From NCBI RefSeq assembly GCF_040438885.1, contig NZ_CP159218.1, positions 4,402,001 to 4,466,000 of the forward strand: a stretch of DNA of 64,000 bases. Direction: 5' to 3'. Origin of the DNA: Nakamurella sp. A5-74. Its GTDB lineage: Bacteria > Actinomycetota > Actinomycetes > Mycobacteriales > Nakamurellaceae. Below are positions 41,949-49,276 of the stretch, piece after piece (the stretch's first letter is position 1; each line of letters begins with the position of its first letter). A program made the translations under genes and the position numbers. The notes under the pieces are model-generated. The model made no database searches. It was given only the letters and a program-made list of their open reading frames with translations, and was not told the DNA's origin.

Positions 41949-44345
41949 TCAGCTCGGAGTCGGGTCCTGGGCTGTCGATCCGATCGTGCCCAACCTGCGG
42001 AGTCCCGGAGCCGGCCGGTCGTAGAGATAGCCCTGCGCGGACGGACACCCGAGTTCCATCAGCAGATCGGCCTGGTCCTGCCGTTCCACGCCCTCGGCCA
42101 CCATGGTGAGCCCCAGGTCGTTGCCGAGTGCGATGACGTGCTGGACGACCAACCGGTCGGCGCGGCTCTCCACGATCCTGGCGACGAAGCTCAGGTCCAG
42201 CTTGATGGTCTCCACCGGCAGATTCGTCAGGTACTGCAGGCTGGCGTACTGGGTGCCGAAATCGTCGATGACGACATGGAAGCCGGCGTCGACCAGCCTG
42301 TTCAGACCGTCGATGGCACCAGGTCCGGCGATCTCGGACTCGGTGATCTCGAGCCGCAGGGCCTCGGCCAACCACCGGTCGTCGCCGACCGCCCGCTGCA
42401 GGTCACCGACCAGGTCGCCGGAGTCCAGTTGACGGGCGGAGACGTTGATCGACAGCAGGAAATCGGTCGGCAGCGCGTCACGCGCGGAACGCAGATCGTC
42501 GAGCGCGCGGTGCAGGACCCATTGACCGACCCCGATGATCTGCCCGGTGCGCACCGCGATCGGGATGAACTCCGACGGCGGGACCGAACCCAGAGCCGGT
42601 GTCTTCAGGCGGAGCAGCGCCTCCGCGCCGATGACCGTTCGGGTGTTCATGTCGACGATTGCCTGGTAATGCAGGTCCAAGCACCGCGAATCGCCCAGCC
42701 CGTCCTGGACGGCGCTCTCCCGCACGGCGCGCAGGTCTAGATCGGCGCTGTAGCGCACGACGCGGTTGCCACCCTGGTCCTTCGCCGCCCGCAGCGCCAG
42801 GCCCGCCTCCCGCAGCAGTTCGGTGAAGCCCTCGAGGCCGGGTGGTTCCGCGTGACGTGAGGTGACGGTGCCGATGCTGACCGTCATCGCCACGGTGCGG
42901 GTCCCGGTCGCCAACGGTTCGGCGAGGGCCACCCTGATCTGTTCTGCGGCCTGCGCGATGAGCAGGGCCGACAGGGGGCCGGGGAGCACGACCGCGAACT
43001 CGTCCCCGCCCAGCCGGCCGACGAATGCCGCTGGTGGCACCACGCGTCGGAGGCGGTCGGCGGCTGTGCGGAGGATCAGGTCGCCCACTCGGTGCCCGTC
43101 CGCGGTGTTGACGCGACTGAACCCGTCGAGGTCGCACGAGAGCACGGCGCAGCGCGGGTGCTCCAGCGAGGCCACCGCCTCGTGGAGGCCTCTCCGGTTG
43201 GCCAGCGAGGTCAGCGGATCGGTGACCGCCAACCGGCTCATCGAATCCGTGGCGGTCGCCCACCAGCGGACGGCAAGCCGCGAACGGAGCACGACCAGCA
43301 CGATGACCATCACCTGGATGGCGGCGACCACCCAGGCCTGCGGGGCGCTGTCGGGCGGCAGGATCAGCGCTCCGATGCAGGGCAGCGCGGTGGCAGCCAC
43401 CATCACGACGAACCGCCAGCCGCCGCCGAACTCATCAGTGGGGCAGCGACCTGGCTCGGTGAGGTCGACCATCGACGGATCGACGGCAGCCGCGCCCAGC
43501 AGCAACACGAACGGAACGGTCGACAGCGCAAGCACAAGAATCGGCTCGGAGACCACGCCGAGACCGCTGACCGTGATCGGCGCGGCGGCGAAGAGATATC
43601 CGACGAGCAGGTAACGGAAGCTCCGCGAGTGGGCGGGCCGGTGGAACTGCAGGTGGGCGACGGAGACCAGGCTGATCGCCATCCCGATCGGCGTGACGAT
43701 GCCGTAGAGCCAGGCGTCCAGGTCGCCGTACTGCGCGAACGCGGGCAGGGTCCGGCTGTGCAGCTGCAGCCCCAGATAGCCGATCCCGATGACGGCACTG
43801 TCCAGCGCGGACGCGAGGGTGAACGGGTGCCCGCGGGCGTACACCATGGCCACCCCCGACGCGCCCAGCAGCAGGGCGCAGCCGGCCACCACGAAGGCGG
43901 TGAAATCGGCGGACGGCACCCCGGTGCCCAACGCCCTGGCCGGCCAGCTGGTGAACAACCCGACCGTCGCCGCGGTCAGCAGCCAGGGCCAGGCCCGCCG
44001 TGGCCGATGGACCCAGATGCCCATCAGGATCAGCGCCATGGTCAGCACTCCCGTGATCAGCCAGATCCACAGGTAGCGGTGGGTCGCGACGGCCGCGGGT
44101 TCGCCGGCGGCGAGCACGATGTGGCCCGCGTAGCCGACGACAGATGCACCGGCGACGGCGACAGCCGCCCATCGCCACGTTCTCGGCTGTCCACCGGGTC
44201 GGGCCGCGCGGTGATGCGCACCGGCATGATCGGCGTGGGCACCGGGTTCGACGATGCGCCCCCCTGGTCCGGAGACCACGGCAGCCAGCACACGCTGGGC
44301 GCCCGGGAGGTTTCCGGGGGTGACCGCCGGGCCGACTCTCGCCAC
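41949..44345 (-). CDS. Membrane GGDEF-EAL protein (c-di-GMP cyclase/phosphodiesterase)
   Basis: About 798 residues: an N-terminal region with roughly eight to ten hydrophobic helices (about 35-340), a GGDEF domain (LTDPLTSLANRRGLHEAV-like start; RLGGDEFAVV near residue 445) and an EAL domain (GAEALLRL near 574, FLLSINVSARQL, VVIDDFGTQYASLQYLTNLP, IKLDLSFV, MVAEGVE). Both GGDEF and EAL motifs look intact, so synthesis and hydrolysis of c-di-GMP are both possible. The open frame continues far upstream through the antisense of the repeat gene at 44493; that part is not credible, and GTG at 44345 is proposed. Divergent from the sigma-stalk gene, sharing a 147-bp promoter region. Confidence 0.88.
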   Translation of the reverse strand: MARVGPAVTPGNLPGAQRVLAAVVSGPGGRIVEPGAHADHAGAHHRAARPGGQPRTWRWAAVAVAGASVVGYAGHIVLAAGEPAAVATHRYLWIWLITGVLTMALILMGIWVHRPRRAWPWLLTAATVGLFTSWPARALGTGVPSADFTAFVVAGCALLLGASGVAMVYARGHPFTLASALDSAVIGIGYLGLQLHSRTLPAFAQYGDLDAWLYGIVTPIGMAISLVSVAHLQFHRPAHSRSFRYLLVGYLFAAAPITVSGLGVVSEPILVLALSTVPFVLLLGAAAVDPSMVDLTEPGRCPTDEFGGGWRFVVMVAATALPCIGALILPPDSAPQAWVVAAIQVMVIVLVVLRSRLAVRWWATATDSMSRLAVTDPLTSLANRRGLHEAVASLEHPRCAVLSCDLDGFSRVNTADGHRVGDLILRTAADRLRRVVPPAAFVGRLGGDEFAVVLPGPLSALLIAQAAEQIRVALAEPLATGTRTVAMTVSIGTVTSRHAEPPGLEGFTELLREAGLALRAAKDQGGNRVVRYSADLDLRAVRESAVQDGLGDSRCLDLHYQAIVDMNTRTVIGAEALLRLKTPALGSVPPSEFIPIAVRTGQIIGVGQWVLHRALDDLRSARDALPTDFLLSINVSARQLDSGDLVGDLQRAVGDDRWLAEALRLEITESEIAGPGAIDGLNRLVDAGFHVVIDDFGTQYASLQYLTNLPVETIKLDLSFVARIVESRADRLVVQHVIALGNDLGLTMVAEGVERQDQADLLMELGCPSAQGYLYDRPAPGLRRLGTIGSTAQDPTPS

Positions 44346-44492
44346 CCGTTCAGCGTACAATCGGACCGCTGGATCCGGGTCGTGCCTGCGCTCCGGGGAC
44401 CAGATTGTGCCCCGAGACCCGCCGGAACGCCGGGCAGGGTGTCCGTCTGGCCACGTCCGCTCCGGGAGCGGAAGTGAGGAGGCTCGTCGATC

Positions 44493-46523
44493 GTGGCTCC
44501 ACCCACATCCAGTGACGCCGAGCTCATCCGGGCGTTGCGCGCCGGAGACCTCGCGGCCAGGGACGCCCTCGATGCCCGCTACCGTTCCCTCCTCCGACGG
44601 CTGGCGCTGGCCTCCCGGATCGCGCCGGACCTGATCGACGAGGTCGTCGATCGGACGTTCGACGCGGCGGTCGCAGCAGTGACGGCGCCCGGTCCCGCTG
44701 GAGTGAACTTCGGCGCGTCGCTCTCGCTGGCACTCCGTGACGAGCTGGCCGACGACTCCGACGGCGCGCCTGACGCCGCACGGACGCCGGCAGGACCACG
44801 TGCCGCGTCGGAAGCGATGATGCACGATGCCTCGCTGGCGAGTGCTGAGCTGATCGCCTCGTGGCAGATGCTGTTGTGGGCGGTGCATGTCGAGGAGGTC
44901 GAGCTCGCCAGGGCCGCTCAGGTCGCCGGCATCCCGACCGAGGAGGCGACGGCTGTGCTCCGCCGCGCCGAGGAGGCCATCGCGAACGGAGTGGTGGCAC
45001 GTGCGCTGGCCCGCGCAGACGGCTCGCATGCGCCCTTCCTCCGCCTGCTGGAACACCGCACCGTCGGCGAGTTGGACCAGGACGCCGCTGATCTCCTCGC
45101 CGCCCACACCGCGCGCTGTGAAGGATGCAGCGCAACGGGTGCCTGGTTGGCGTCGTTCCGCTCCGCACCGGGCGTGATCCTGGCCGCGGTCGTGCTCGGG
45201 AGCGCCGCACAGCCCTATCTGCGGTCCGCGCCCACGCCGGCGAGCAGTTCGACTCCCCGGCCGGCACGCATCGCAACGCTGCAGGCCGAACACTCCCGGG
45301 GTCTGCTGGTGACGACGACCGCTGTCCTGGCAGCCTTCGGCCTCCTGGTGGTTGCGGTCACTGTCCCCGGCGTCAGCACGCTGAGGGCCCAGCTGTTGCA
45401 GAACCCCGTTCCGACCACCGCTGATGGCGCGGCGACGCAGACCTCGCCGTCCGCAACCCGGCTCACCCTGCTGTACCCGACCCCGTCCGGACTGTCGACC
45501 GCTGGGACCGGTCCGCGAACCACCGATCCCGAGACGTCCCAGGGCGACGGCGCGGGAGCGGTGACCGAAGGCGCGGTCACCAGCCGGAGGGCTCGGACCG
45601 CCGCTGCGAGCTCCACGGTCACTTCCTGGACGTCCCCAGCACTCTCGACCACCGACCCGGCCATCCCTGGCACCTCCGTCGCCCGGACGACGGCCTCCAC
45701 TCCGACGACGGCCACCACCTCGACAACGGCGCCCACTCCGACAACGGCGCCCACTCCGACAACGGCGCCCACTCCGACAACGGCGCCCACTCCGACAACG
45801 GCGCCCACTCCAACGACGGCGCCCACTCCAACGACGGCGCCCACTCCAACGAAGGTGCCCACTCCAACGACGGCGCCCACTCCAACGACGGCGCCCACTC
45901 CAACGACGGCGCCCACTCCAACGACGGCGCCCACTCCAACGACGGCGCCCACTCCAACGACGGCGCCCACTCCGACAACGGCGCCCACAAAGACGACGGC
46001 GCCCACTCCGACAACGTTGCCGACGTCGGGCGTCGCGATGCCGCCCGCTCTCACGGCGCCGCCCGTACCGCGTCCGAGTCCGACACCTCCGGCCCCCACC
46101 GGAACCAGCATCGAGCCGCCCGTCACGTCGGCATCGTCGTCGGCCCGACCGCCCACCACCACGACCACGGTCACCAGCAGGACCGTCACCGAACCGGCAT
46201 CCCCGCTCGTCGTCCAACTGGGGGACGACTGGTCCGACCTGGAGATCACGCCAGGCCTGGGCTTCAGCCGGACCACCAGGCTGCTCAACGAGTCCGGTCG
46301 GACGAGCGCGCCGATGGTCATCGTCGCCAGGAGCTCCGTCTCCCTGCTGATGACTCTCGCAGCGGACGGCCGTCCGTGCGGCCCGATCGGCGTGCTGGCC
46401 AAATCGGTCTCCTGCACCATCGGCCCGCTCGCGCCGGGGGAATCGGTGCGGATCACCTTCTCGGCAGCACTGCCGCTCAGCATCGAGAACCAGACGGTGT
46501 CCGTGGAGCTCATCCCGGAATGA
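44493..46523 (+). CDS. Sigma-like/zinc-finger membrane protein with (APTPTT)n extracellular stalk
   Basis: The 676-residue protein has an ECF-sigma-like N-terminus with weak region 2 (SDAELIRALRAGDLAARDAL, then YRSLLRRLALASRIAPDLID) and region 4-like HTH (EELARAAQVAGIPTEEATAV-type helix, residues about 134-165). A zf-HC2-like motif HTARCEGC (H205, C209, C212) follows. A hydrophobic helix near 271-291 is succeeded by about 16 repeats of APTPTT (about 411-507). A C-terminal domain (about 570-676: VVQLGDDWSDLEITPGLGFS, MTLAADGRPCGPIGVLAKSV) has two cysteines. Sigma and anti-sigma-like parts are thus joined to an outside sensor through a long stalk. Related fused sigma factors (groups such as ECF52/53) are known in actinobacteria. 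GTG start. Confidence 0.75.
   Translation: MAPPTSSDAELIRALRAGDLAARDALDARYRSLLRRLALASRIAPDLIDEVVDRTFDAAVAAVTAPGPAGVNFGASLSLALRDELADDSDGAPDAARTPAGPRAASEAMMHDASLASAELIASWQMLLWAVHVEEVELARAAQVAGIPTEEATAVLRRAEEAIANGVVARALARADGSHAPFLRLLEHRTVGELDQDAADLLAAHTARCEGCSATGAWLASFRSAPGVILAAVVLGSAAQPYLRSAPTPASSSTPRPARIATLQAEHSRGLLVTTTAVLAAFGLLVVAVTVPGVSTLRAQLLQNPVPTTADGAATQTSPSATRLTLLYPTPSGLSTAGTGPRTTDPETSQGDGAGAVTEGAVTSRRARTAAASSTVTSWTSPALSTTDPAIPGTSVARTTASTPTTATTSTTAPTPTTAPTPTTAPTPTTAPTPTTAPTPTTAPTPTTAPTPTKVPTPTTAPTPTTAPTPTTAPTPTTAPTPTTAPTPTTAPTPTTAPTKTTAPTPTTLPTSGVAMPPALTAPPVPRPSPTPPAPTGTSIEPPVTSASSSARPPTTTTTVTSRTVTEPASPLVVQLGDDWSDLEITPGLGFSRTTRLLNESGRTSAPMVIVARSSVSLLMTLAADGRPCGPIGVLAKSVSCTIGPLAPGESVRITFSAALPLSIENQTVSVELIPE
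45722..46015 (+). repeat. 18-bp tandem repeat encoding APTPTT
   Basis: About 16 copies of an 18-bp unit (ACGGCGCCCACTCC(A/G)AC and so on) form a tandem array inside the sigma-like gene. Two units vary (KVPTPT and APTKTT). Copies near each end use ACAACG, those in the middle ACGACG, consistent with expansion by slippage. Copy number is likely to vary between strains. Confidence 0.9.
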
Positions 46524-46556
46524 CCGGCCGCCGGGGCGGCGGGTCGCACCAGCGCG

Positions 46557-47195
46557 TCAGTCGGCGAAATCCCAGTTGGCGGTGACGGTCACGGCAACAT
46601 CGCGGTCGCCGGCGGCCACCGGCATCGTCGCGTCCTTCGCAGACCGGAGCGCGAACGCCGCGGCCGTCGGACGTGGACCTGCGGCACCGGCTCCCTCCGT
46701 GAGCCACTGCAGCGCACCGAGCGACCGGGAGGCGAGTGCGGCAAAGTGCCGAGCCTTCGACAACGCCTGTGCCACAGCGGCTTCGCGGGCATCGGTGAGC
46801 GCCTGCTCCGGTTCGGCTGCCGTCAGCTCGACGCTGTTGATCCGCACCCCTGCACCCCCGTGCGCAGCCACCTCGGACAGCACCTTCTCGACCGAAGCGA
46901 GGTCGGTGAGCGTCGCCAGCAGCTGCTGCGACGCGGCGTATCCGAGGAGAACCTCGCGATCGGCCTGCCAGTTGGTGCGAGGCCCGAAGCTCAGGTCGCG
47001 GGTGCGGACCGAACGTGAATCGACGCCGTTGTCCGCCAGGATCGACAGCACCCGCTCCACGGCGGTCGCCGTCGCGCGGAACGCCTCTCCCGCATCCGGT
47101 CGCAGCGTCTCGATGCCCAGATCGATCACGATCCGGTCGACGGGGGCGGCAACCACGGCGGTGGCGCTGACGGTGATACCCGATGGCTCGCTCAT
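46557..47195 (-). CDS. SIMPL-domain (DUF541) protein
   Basis: The 212-residue protein shows the SIMPL/BP26 pattern ITVSATAVVAAPVDRIVIDL, FRATATAVERVLSILADNGV, SRSVRTRDLSFGPRTNWQAD, LLGYAASQQLLATLTDLASV and a C-terminal strand VAVTVTANWDF. Family members form oligomeric channels or chaperone-like assemblies in the envelope; this one has no signal peptide, which is common in actinobacteria. ATG at 47195 gives the canonical N-terminus. Convergent with the sigma-stalk gene, with a short GC-rich inverted repeat between. Confidence 0.85.
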   Translation of the reverse strand: MSEPSGITVSATAVVAAPVDRIVIDLGIETLRPDAGEAFRATATAVERVLSILADNGVDSRSVRTRDLSFGPRTNWQADREVLLGYAASQQLLATLTDLASVEKVLSEVAAHGGAGVRINSVELTAAEPEQALTDAREAAVAQALSKARHFAALASRSLGALQWLTEGAGAAGPRPTAAAFALRSAKDATMPVAAGDRDVAVTVTANWDFAD

Positions 47196-47586: not shown

Positions 47587-47955
47587 ATGCCGACGTACAT
47601 GTTCCTGCTGCACGACGACGAGTCCTGGTTCGACACCGTCAGCCCGGAGACGTGGGCCGAGGAGATGACCAAGCACCGAGCCTTCTCCGATGCGGTGCGA
47701 GCGGCCGGTGGTTCCGTGCTGGACGGTGCGGCGCTGGAGCGCTCTTCGCTGGCCACCACCGTCGACAACACGGGCGACGAGCCGACCGTCACCGACGGTC
47801 CGTTCATCGAGACCAAGGAGGTGTTCGGCGGCTACTACGTCGTGGACGTCGCGGACCTGGACGTGGCCATCGCACTGGCCGAGCAGTGCCCGAGCGGACA
47901 CGTGGAGATTCGGCCGGTGATGAGCACGGACGATGACTCGGCTCCCCCGGTCTGA
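47587..47955 (+). CDS. YCII-related DGPF-domain protein (second copy)
   Basis: The 122-residue DGPF protein starts MPTYMFLLHDDESWFDTVSP and has TVTDGPFIETKEVFGGYYVV DGPF block at about residues 62-81, then VAIALAEQCPSGHVEIRPVM. The ECF42 gene overlaps its end by 23 bp in another frame, so they are translationally coupled. It is only distantly similar to the DGPF protein at 35025, so it is not a recent duplicate. A matching ECF42 promoter lies upstream. Confidence 0.9.
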   Translation: MPTYMFLLHDDESWFDTVSPETWAEEMTKHRAFSDAVRAAGGSVLDGAALERSSLATTVDNTGDEPTVTDGPFIETKEVFGGYYVVDVADLDVAIALAEQCPSGHVEIRPVMSTDDDSAPPV

Positions 47956-49276
47956 ACCGACCGACCCGGGGGGCCCGATCCGTCCCGGCGGCGACGAGGT
48001 CACCCGGCTCGTCGAGCGAGCCCACCGCGACCACTGGTCGCAGGTCCTGGCCAGCACCGTGCGGGTCACCCGGGATCTCGACCTGGCCCAGGAGTGCGCG
48101 CAGGAGGCCTACCTCCGCGCACTCCGGGCGTGGCCCGGCGCTGTACCGGACGTTCCGGTCGCCTGGCTCACGACGGCCGCGCGGCGGATCGCCCTGGACG
48201 GCCTCAGGCGGGCAGATCTGTTGCGGCGCAAGCTCCCGCTGCTGATGGAGCCGGGTCCGCCGCTGGGCGCAGCTGCCTCGGACAGCGCCGACGCATCAGA
48301 CGAGCCGACGGACGTCCTGCGGCTGATGTTCATCTGCTGTCACCCGGCGCTGGCTCCGGACTCACGGGTCGCGTTGACGCTGCGGCTGGTCGGCGGCCTG
48401 AGCACCGAAGAGGTCGCCGCCGGGCTGTTGGTACCGGTTGCGACGGCGGCTGCTCGGATCACCCGCGCGAAGAAGAAGATCGCCCGTGCCGGGATCCCGT
48501 TCCGAGTGCCTTCCCCCACCGAGCTTCCGGAGCGCCTGGACACGCTGCTCACCGTGCTCCAGGTGATGTCGGCGGCCGGACACACGTCGGTGGCCGGCAC
48601 CCTGCAGCGCTCCGACCTGACGGAACGCGCTGTCCGGGCAGCGCGACTGCTCGTCGCCGCACTGCCCGACCCGGTGGTGGACGATGCCAGGGCACTGCTC
48701 GCCCATCTGTTGCTCACCAGGGCCAGGGGCGATTCCCGCATCGATGGCGATGGGCGGTTGGTGTTGATGGCCGACCAGGACCGGACTCGCTGGCAGGGTG
48801 CCGATCTCGACGAGGGTCTCGACCTGATCACCGCCGTACTCACCAGCATCACGACCGGCGGTCGCAGTCCCGGTCGATTCACCGTGCAGGCGGTGATCGC
48901 GGGCCTGCACATGAATGCCCCGAGCTTCTCCGAGACCGACTGGCCGGAGCTCGTGCGCTGGTACGAGGCCCTGCTGCGGCGCTGGCCGACCCCGGTCGTC
49001 CGGCTCAACGCGTTGGTGGCCAGGAGCCACCTCTCCGGCGCTCGACGCCCCGAACTGCGCGCGGAACTGGCGGCACTGGAGCGCGAACCGCAGCTGGCTC
49101 GCTACCCCTACCTGCCGGCCGCAGTGGCCGAGCTGCTGGCCCGGTGGGGCGACCTCGACGGTGCGGCGGTCGCCTACGACCGCGCCATCGAGCTGTCCCG
49201 CAACGACGTGGAGCGACAGCACCTGCGCGCACGGCGCGACGGATTGGGCGGTGCCGGTCGGCGGCACGGTGCCTGA
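47933..49276 (+). CDS. ECF42-type RNA polymerase sigma factor (second copy)
   Basis: The 447-residue protein has sigma region 2 (DHWSQVLASTVRVTRDLDLA, QECAQEAYLRALRAWPGAVP, AWLTTAARRIALDGLRRADL), region 4 (VALTLRLVGGLSTEEVAAGL, TAAARITRAKKKIARAGIPF) and the ECF42 C-terminal extension (LLTRARGDSRIDGDGRLVLM, WPTPVVRLNALVARSHLSGA, WGDLDGAAVAYDRAIELSRN). No anti-sigma factor is adjacent. The start at 47933 overlaps the DGPF gene; an in-frame start farther in is possible. The two ECF42 proteins in this window diverge in regions 2 and 4, so they probably recognise different promoters. Confidence 0.88.
   Translation: MTRLPRSEPTDPGGPIRPGGDEVTRLVERAHRDHWSQVLASTVRVTRDLDLAQECAQEAYLRALRAWPGAVPDVPVAWLTTAARRIALDGLRRADLLRRKLPLLMEPGPPLGAAASDSADASDEPTDVLRLMFICCHPALAPDSRVALTLRLVGGLSTEEVAAGLLVPVATAAARITRAKKKIARAGIPFRVPSPTELPERLDTLLTVLQVMSAAGHTSVAGTLQRSDLTERAVRAARLLVAALPDPVVDDARALLAHLLLTRARGDSRIDGDGRLVLMADQDRTRWQGADLDEGLDLITAVLTSITTGGRSPGRFTVQAVIAGLHMNAPSFSETDWPELVRWYEALLRRWPTPVVRLNALVARSHLSGARRPELRAELAALEREPQLARYPYLPAAVAELLARWGDLDGAAVAYDRAIELSRNDVERQHLRARRDGLGGAGRRHGA

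Follow-up and report, generated by a model that had tools for sequence, protein, structure and literature searches.

A probable membrane-bound pseudo-sigma derived from an ECF52/53-type fusion sigma factor in Nakamurella sp. A5-74

The gene, its parts and its neighbours

The window analysed is a stretch of 64,000 nucleotides of the Nakamurella sp. A5-74 genome, and the gene under study lies at nt 44493–46523 on its plus strand. The open reading frame begins with GTG, has GAGGAGG 10 nt 5′ of this codon, and encodes 676 residues. As a sequence-only reading had claimed, this single gene joins a sigma-like part, a zinc motif, a membrane helix, a stalk and a cysteine-bearing domain, and the sigma, anti-sigma and external parts thus lie in one polypeptide. 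The features of the locus are as follows.

44493..46523, plus strand: whole gene, 676 aa; putative pseudo-sigma, zinc anti-sigma-like domain, membrane helix, Thr-Pro stalk and beta domain
44514..44756, plus strand: sigma2-like fold in an AlphaFold2 model, aa 8–88
44757..44795, plus strand: aa 89–101, where the basic 2.4 helix has been lost; about 11 residues missing, no Lys or Arg in the 2.4 core, mean pLDDT 52 for aa 91–100
44796..45014, plus strand: sigma4-like fold in the model, aa 102–174, recognition-helix consensus lost
45027..45164, plus strand: predicted zinc-binding anti-sigma-like domain, aa 179–224; ligands H205, C209 and C212, candidate ligand H179
45303..45359, plus strand: predicted transmembrane helix, aa 271–289; hydropathy 2.5, modelled as helix 256–290 at low pLDDT
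45363..46199, plus strand: Thr/Pro/Ala-rich stalk, aa 291–569; 33% T and 21% P over aa 291–570
45729..46016, plus strand: 16 hexads [A/V]PT[P/K]T[T/K], aa 413–508, 13 of them exactly APTPTT
46200..46520, plus strand: predicted C-terminal beta-sandwich domain, aa 570–676, with C629 and C641 (possible disulfide); all-beta model, pLDDT 85.5
41949..44345, minus strand: GGDEF-EAL gene, about nine hydrophobic peaks, both motifs intact; start uncertain, 44345 being one candidate

The GC3 of the gene is 0.81 versus 0.82–0.91 in five neighbouring genes. A frameshift or wrong frame was rejected, since the profile of the relatives fits the annotated frame in a six-frame search (65.8 bits, E 1.1e-21) and scores the two other listed frames below zero. 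Very long open reading frames run antisense across the gene on the minus strand (nt 41949–46217 and 45215–46549), best explained as an effect of the high G+C content (about 70%). Neither Sigma70-type promoters nor terminators were found within nt 44200–46700. A GGAAC-N15-CGT site at nt 44424 was considered as a shared ECF promoter; the idea was dropped because the same site stands 5′ of 3 of 40 family genes versus 2.4 expected.

The zinc triad HxxxCxxC (H205, C209, C212), read correctly from the sequence, is invariant in all 37 aligned rows and complete in 118 of 119 family members; the one exception, an ORF of 238 aa, stops short of the motif. Despite the exact triad, Pfam zf-HC2 does not match the window copy. 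The membrane helix also stood up, at about residues 271–289. The stalk that follows, about 280 residues long, could span the Gram-positive wall. Some 16 APTPTT repeats had been counted in it; the number of hexads holds, whereas the uniform sequence does not. At nt 45686–46016 TRF detects an 18-bp unit repeated 18.4 times, and no second strain was found for a comparison of repeat number. The cysteine-bearing C-terminal domain, likewise borne out, is 13–23% identical to the outer domains of six relatives. Each of the seven domains contains two cysteines, in columns that are not all shared. The window domain belongs to no Pfam family, and its structural matches are generic beta folds at Z about 8, some of them sugar-binding. 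A sugar-binding role was considered, and the matches were to generic beta sandwiches only.

The GGDEF-EAL gene is divergent from the window gene, as had been noted, and its layout is RmdB-like. GGDEF/EAL matches at E≤1e-20 occur in 17 of 17 genomes of the genus, and the ten best genus relatives of the window GGDEF-EAL protein, besides itself, are distant, at 36–42% identity, mostly over GGDEF-EAL alone. Only one other EAL gene and 12 GGDEF matches occur in the host genome; the chance of such a neighbour is about 0.3%, a post hoc figure based on an estimate of about 4300 genes. A SIMPL gene lies directly downstream of the window gene in convergent orientation, and there is therefore no co-directional downstream gene. 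The window also holds a sigma gene at nt 47587–49276 (plus strand) with Sigma70_r2, r4_2 and DUF6596. We take it to be ECF42-like, and the small gene directly before it is presumably the usual DGPF/YCII partner.

The sigma-like part and its promoter-reading regions

Structure prediction of the sigma part yields a sigma2/sigma4 fold, and that of residues 570–676 a beta sandwich. The AlphaFold2 model (mean pLDDT 82.1, pTM 0.61) comprises sigma2 (8–88), sigma4 (102–174), a helical zinc domain (180–224) and, where the membrane segment lies, a long helix; its input was an alignment of sigma-type relatives, which biases it toward a sigma fold. Foldseek against the PDB gave nothing at E≤0.001 for either model, that of the sigma part or that of the outer domain, and the fold call for the sigma part rests on a second look with VIA-align, whose top rows are sigma factors. 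The sigma2 part matches sigma-E region 2 (4lup) with Z 11.7 and rmsd 3.5 over 91 residues and CnrH (4cxf) with Z 11.4 and rmsd 2.4 over 85 residues, and the sigma4 part matches sigma-E region 4 (2h27) with Z 8.8 and rmsd 2.0 over 69 residues, values to be read with the caution that Z below about 13 may be chance for helical bundles.

The sigma regions had been described as weak, and they are: the full protein has no Pfam match at E≤1, and the best of several weak NCBIfam matches on the N-terminus has E 1.7e-5 at residues 4–67, the region of 2.1–2.2. The sigma-like N-terminus itself was recovered, with 63.8 bits for the window protein from a profile of 35 intact relatives. In 46 of 58 core columns its residue is hydrophobic (Ala included), and none of 2000 shuffles scored as high. 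By sequence and model, the window protein keeps both region 2 and region 4 of the ECF sigma fold.

Regions 2.4 and 4.2 of sigma factors read promoters. Region 2.4 of the intact family resembles YDRTRRDKRL, and the window gene is short by about 11 residues there. From the order-level sample 120 of 127 family places were fetched, and 119 could be scored for Lys and Arg in the 2.4 core: zero were found in 2 members, one in 1, two in 12, three in 14, four in 21 and five in 69. The two with zero are the window gene and its paralogue L016; the remaining 117 have 1–5, and the 35 intact rows of the 37-row alignment have 3–5. In region 4, LPERW has become LIASW, and the recognition helix is strongly unlike the 36 other aligned rows. 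Scored against the leave-one-out mean of 35 relatives, the window protein is lowest in region 4.2 (−12.8 sd) and 4.1 (−10.5 sd), followed by 2.2 (−10.2), 2.1 (−4.3), the zinc domain (−4.3) and the linker (−3.2). The loss is therefore not confined to the DNA-reading parts, and region 2.3–2.4 as a whole, at −4.5 sd, is no lower than some of these. On the whole profile the window protein is the lowest of the 119 at 63.8 bits, L016 scores 146.4, and the other 117, among which are the 35 sequences that built the profile, score at least 165.5.

A different replacement was seen in a subfamily of fusion sigmas (L118–L120, L122, L128, L129, L138, L139 and L144, like L100), where WEW..ARRD[VI]-like residues stand in place of the 2.4 core. 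Several of these are second copies within their own genome.

With the 2.4 core absent and 4.2 this far from the family, the promoter-recognition elements are missing, and the window protein is therefore filed as a degenerate derivative rather than as a member with sigma activity. It appears no longer to recognise promoters, and we regard a pseudo-sigma as quite likely in place of a promoter-specific sigma. The sequence-only reading had allowed for a membrane regulator of sigma-factor origin, and this option fits best. A working, very divergent ECF sigma with altered promoter specificity, freed by proteolysis as proposed for ECF52, could account for the retained sigma2 and sigma4 folds and for regions 2.1–2.2, which still match a sigma model; it shares the ECF52 architecture, and the ECF52 sigma domain alone can modulate development (PMC5826349). 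The deletion of the 2.4 helix with its basic residues and the altered recognition helix speak against such a sigma, which we judge very unlikely.

Paralogues, relatives and the degenerate-GGDEF partner

Of the 17 genus genomes, 13 contain family matches; the figures are 88 of 298 for the order (127 places) and 142 of 394 for the class (profile search, E≤1e-25). Pfam at E≤0.01 finds sigma region 2 in 35 of the 37 aligned rows, Sigma70_r4_2 in 34 and zf-HC2 in 34; none of these domains is matched in the window copy, and the full L016 protein is likewise without match. Besides the window gene, the host genome has two full-length members.

C1:1249860 (L043:7439–9799, minus strand of L043): L016, second putative pseudo-sigma copy, 787 aa, no basic 2.4 residues
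C1:3405561: L017, intact paralogue, 1233 aa

All three have Thr/Pro-rich stalks, each with different repeats, that of L016 being TVPGTT plus poly-Thr. L016 lies between a decarboxylase-like gene and a menA-like gene, both named by eye.

No orthologue of the window gene was found in the 17 genus genomes, the 298 order genomes or the genome contig collection, which may omit very near records; the 169 pattern matches of the window protein in that collection include no relative. The gene may therefore be a decaying relic. Among the 17 genus genomes the degenerate copies are confined to the host genome. The window copy sits on an extreme terminal branch (10 changes per column versus a median of 0.088). 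In a tree of 21 of the 37 rows it groups with L016 at support 63/53, which does not establish the grouping. Grouping with the intact copies of the genus is not rejected, with p-AU of 0.288 for both, 0.485 for L016 alone and 0.154 for the window copy alone. Such a test is unsafe because of the long branches, and an origin of the pseudo-sigma copies by duplication within the genus is not demonstrated by this tree.

The restriction to one genome, the presence of two such copies there, the extreme end branch and the disappearance of most family-conserved positions in several regions would all be expected of a decaying copy without function, whose sigma part drifts and whose frame stays open by chance. 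Plain decay is opposed by the hydrophobic core, the GC3 and the lack of a better alternative frame; a 676-aa open frame, an exact zinc triad, a membrane segment and a beta domain modelled with confidence also count against it, and we consider it unlikely. The reading we prefer is that the window protein is probably a fast-evolving degenerate copy of an actinobacterial ECF52/53-type fusion, a membrane pseudo-sigma that may serve as a decoy. The degenerate derivative is, judged by sequence, so far genome-specific, and the architecture itself is known.

The intact paralogue L017 is head-to-head with a small gene encoding a GGDEF-like domain, which opens with DPLTGL but has no GGDEF motif. Among 27 neighbours of this kind a DPLTG-like start is present in all 27 and GG[D/E]EF in none, 26 of them covering the site. 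Alignment of this partner family to GGDEF domains by hhalign gives 94.6% probability (E 6.6e-8), with 0.2% for a control against the sigma family; Pfam GGDEF had no match in the two members tried. Of 40 family loci, most of them covered with some 1.5 kb of flank, 27 have the degenerate-GGDEF gene alongside, divergent in every case. By group, all 13 intact genus loci have it, as do 11 of 12 in family f14 and 0 of 7 in f15. It is absent beside the window gene and beside L016.

The order sample of 298 genomes contains 76 degenerate-GGDEF places in 74 genomes, 70 of which have a fusion-sigma place in divergent orientation no more than 1.5 kb away; conversely, 69 of the 127 fusion-sigma places have the partner and 58 are without. 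From 284 confirmed relatives the best 80, as chosen by conserved sigma motifs, were examined as named loci; the partner occurs in 61, all 61 divergent: 16 of 17 in Nocardioidaceae, 13 of 13 in Lentzea, 8 of 9 in Amycolatopsis, 7 of 12 in Saccharothrix, 0 of 10 in Glycomyces and 17 of 19 in others. The head-to-head pairing was met in Nakamurella, Lentzea, Amycolatopsis, Saccharothrix, Nocardioides and others; one example is the degenerate-GGDEF gene at L044:7335–8126 (minus strand) beside a fusion sigma at L044:8517–12218 (plus strand). A limited literature search, with the main ECF classification outside it, found no published account of this pairing. The coupling of envelope signals to c-di-GMP that had been proposed for the window gene and its neighbour thus finds backing at the level of the family only, where intact members are paired with the degenerate-GGDEF gene.

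Known systems and a possible role

ECF52 SCO4117 of Streptomyces coelicolor combines a sigma domain with a zinc finger, a membrane segment, a proline-rich extension and, at the C-terminus, a carbohydrate-binding module (PMC5826349), and release by proteolysis has been proposed for it (PMC5826349, PMC8999054). The window protein similarly unites a sigma part, zinc finger, membrane segment, Pro-rich extension and C-terminal domain. Since this plan is already published, the stalk and layout are not new; the sequence-only reading had taken the repeat stalk to be so. Unlike ECF52, the window protein is without the promoter-reading parts, a comparison made with SCO4117 by layout and not letter by letter. 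Its outer part, predicted as a single beta sandwich that falls into no recognised sugar-binding family, and its GGDEF-EAL neighbour are further differences.

PhyR of Alphaproteobacteria, in which the promoter- and core-binding regions appear degenerate, titrates the anti-sigma factor NepR (PMC8103513). The window protein resembles it in that its sigma-like domain, too, has degenerate promoter regions. As a response regulator, PhyR contains a receiver domain, whereas the window protein has a membrane segment and its own zinc domain, and Pfam at E≤1 detects no receiver domain in it. IutY of Pseudomonas putida (ECF243) likewise fuses a sigma and a membrane-bound anti-sigma; it differs as an active, aerobactin-responsive sigma, freed by Prc and RseP (PMC8999054).

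RmdB uses its GGDEF domain to bind sigma-WhiG (PMC13232838). There, a membrane GGDEF-EAL protein is tied to a sigma factor, as a hypothetical contact at the window locus would have it; unlike the window protein, WhiG is not a membrane fusion. The pseudo-sigma might accordingly be a membrane dock: by binding the neighbour's GGDEF domain it would link a signal from the envelope to the turnover of c-di-GMP, not to transcription. The intact divergent GGDEF-EAL gene with its RmdB-like layout, the scarcity of GGDEF/EAL genes in the genome that makes this neighbour improbable by chance (post hoc), and the pairing of many intact relatives with a degenerate-GGDEF gene point this way. On the other side, L016 has no such neighbour, the 58 partnerless places show the pairing to be incomplete in the family, and the GGDEF-EAL neighbour is not the degenerate-GGDEF partner. 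A dock seems to us quite unlikely.

Because the DNA-reading part is lost, the protein is probably a decoy or a dock, if functional at all. For the pseudo-sigma reading that we prefer, we propose that the pseudo-sigma would sit in the membrane while the stalk and beta domain sense the envelope. It would act through protein contact, most likely as a decoy competing for the partners of the intact paralogue, which may be core RNA polymerase, anti-sigma fragments set free by release, or regulators of the GGDEF type. Release might occur by regulated proteolysis, after the ECF52 proposal; M50 (site-2-protease-type) genes are present in the host genome, which makes putative proteolytic release feasible. 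The decoy role in particular is tentative. A broader scheme, which we find doubtful, is that the membrane-spanning ECF52/53-type fusion sigmas of Actinobacteria and the divergent, catalytically dead GGDEF protein form an unrecognised two-part envelope-to-c-di-GMP module. In the host, copying of the sigma half would have given rise to the two wall-anchored, promoter-blind pseudo-sigmas, which would tune the module by competing for its GGDEF-type or anti-sigma partners.

A more testable lead than the role of the window copy is the degenerate-GGDEF gene that recurs beside the intact relatives, which offers a little-understood ECF group a concrete partner open to testing. The principle of PhyR is a broken sigma used as bait. 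If the proposal is true, a membrane-held sigma mimic with its own anti-sigma domain would extend this principle to Gram-positive transmembrane signalling.
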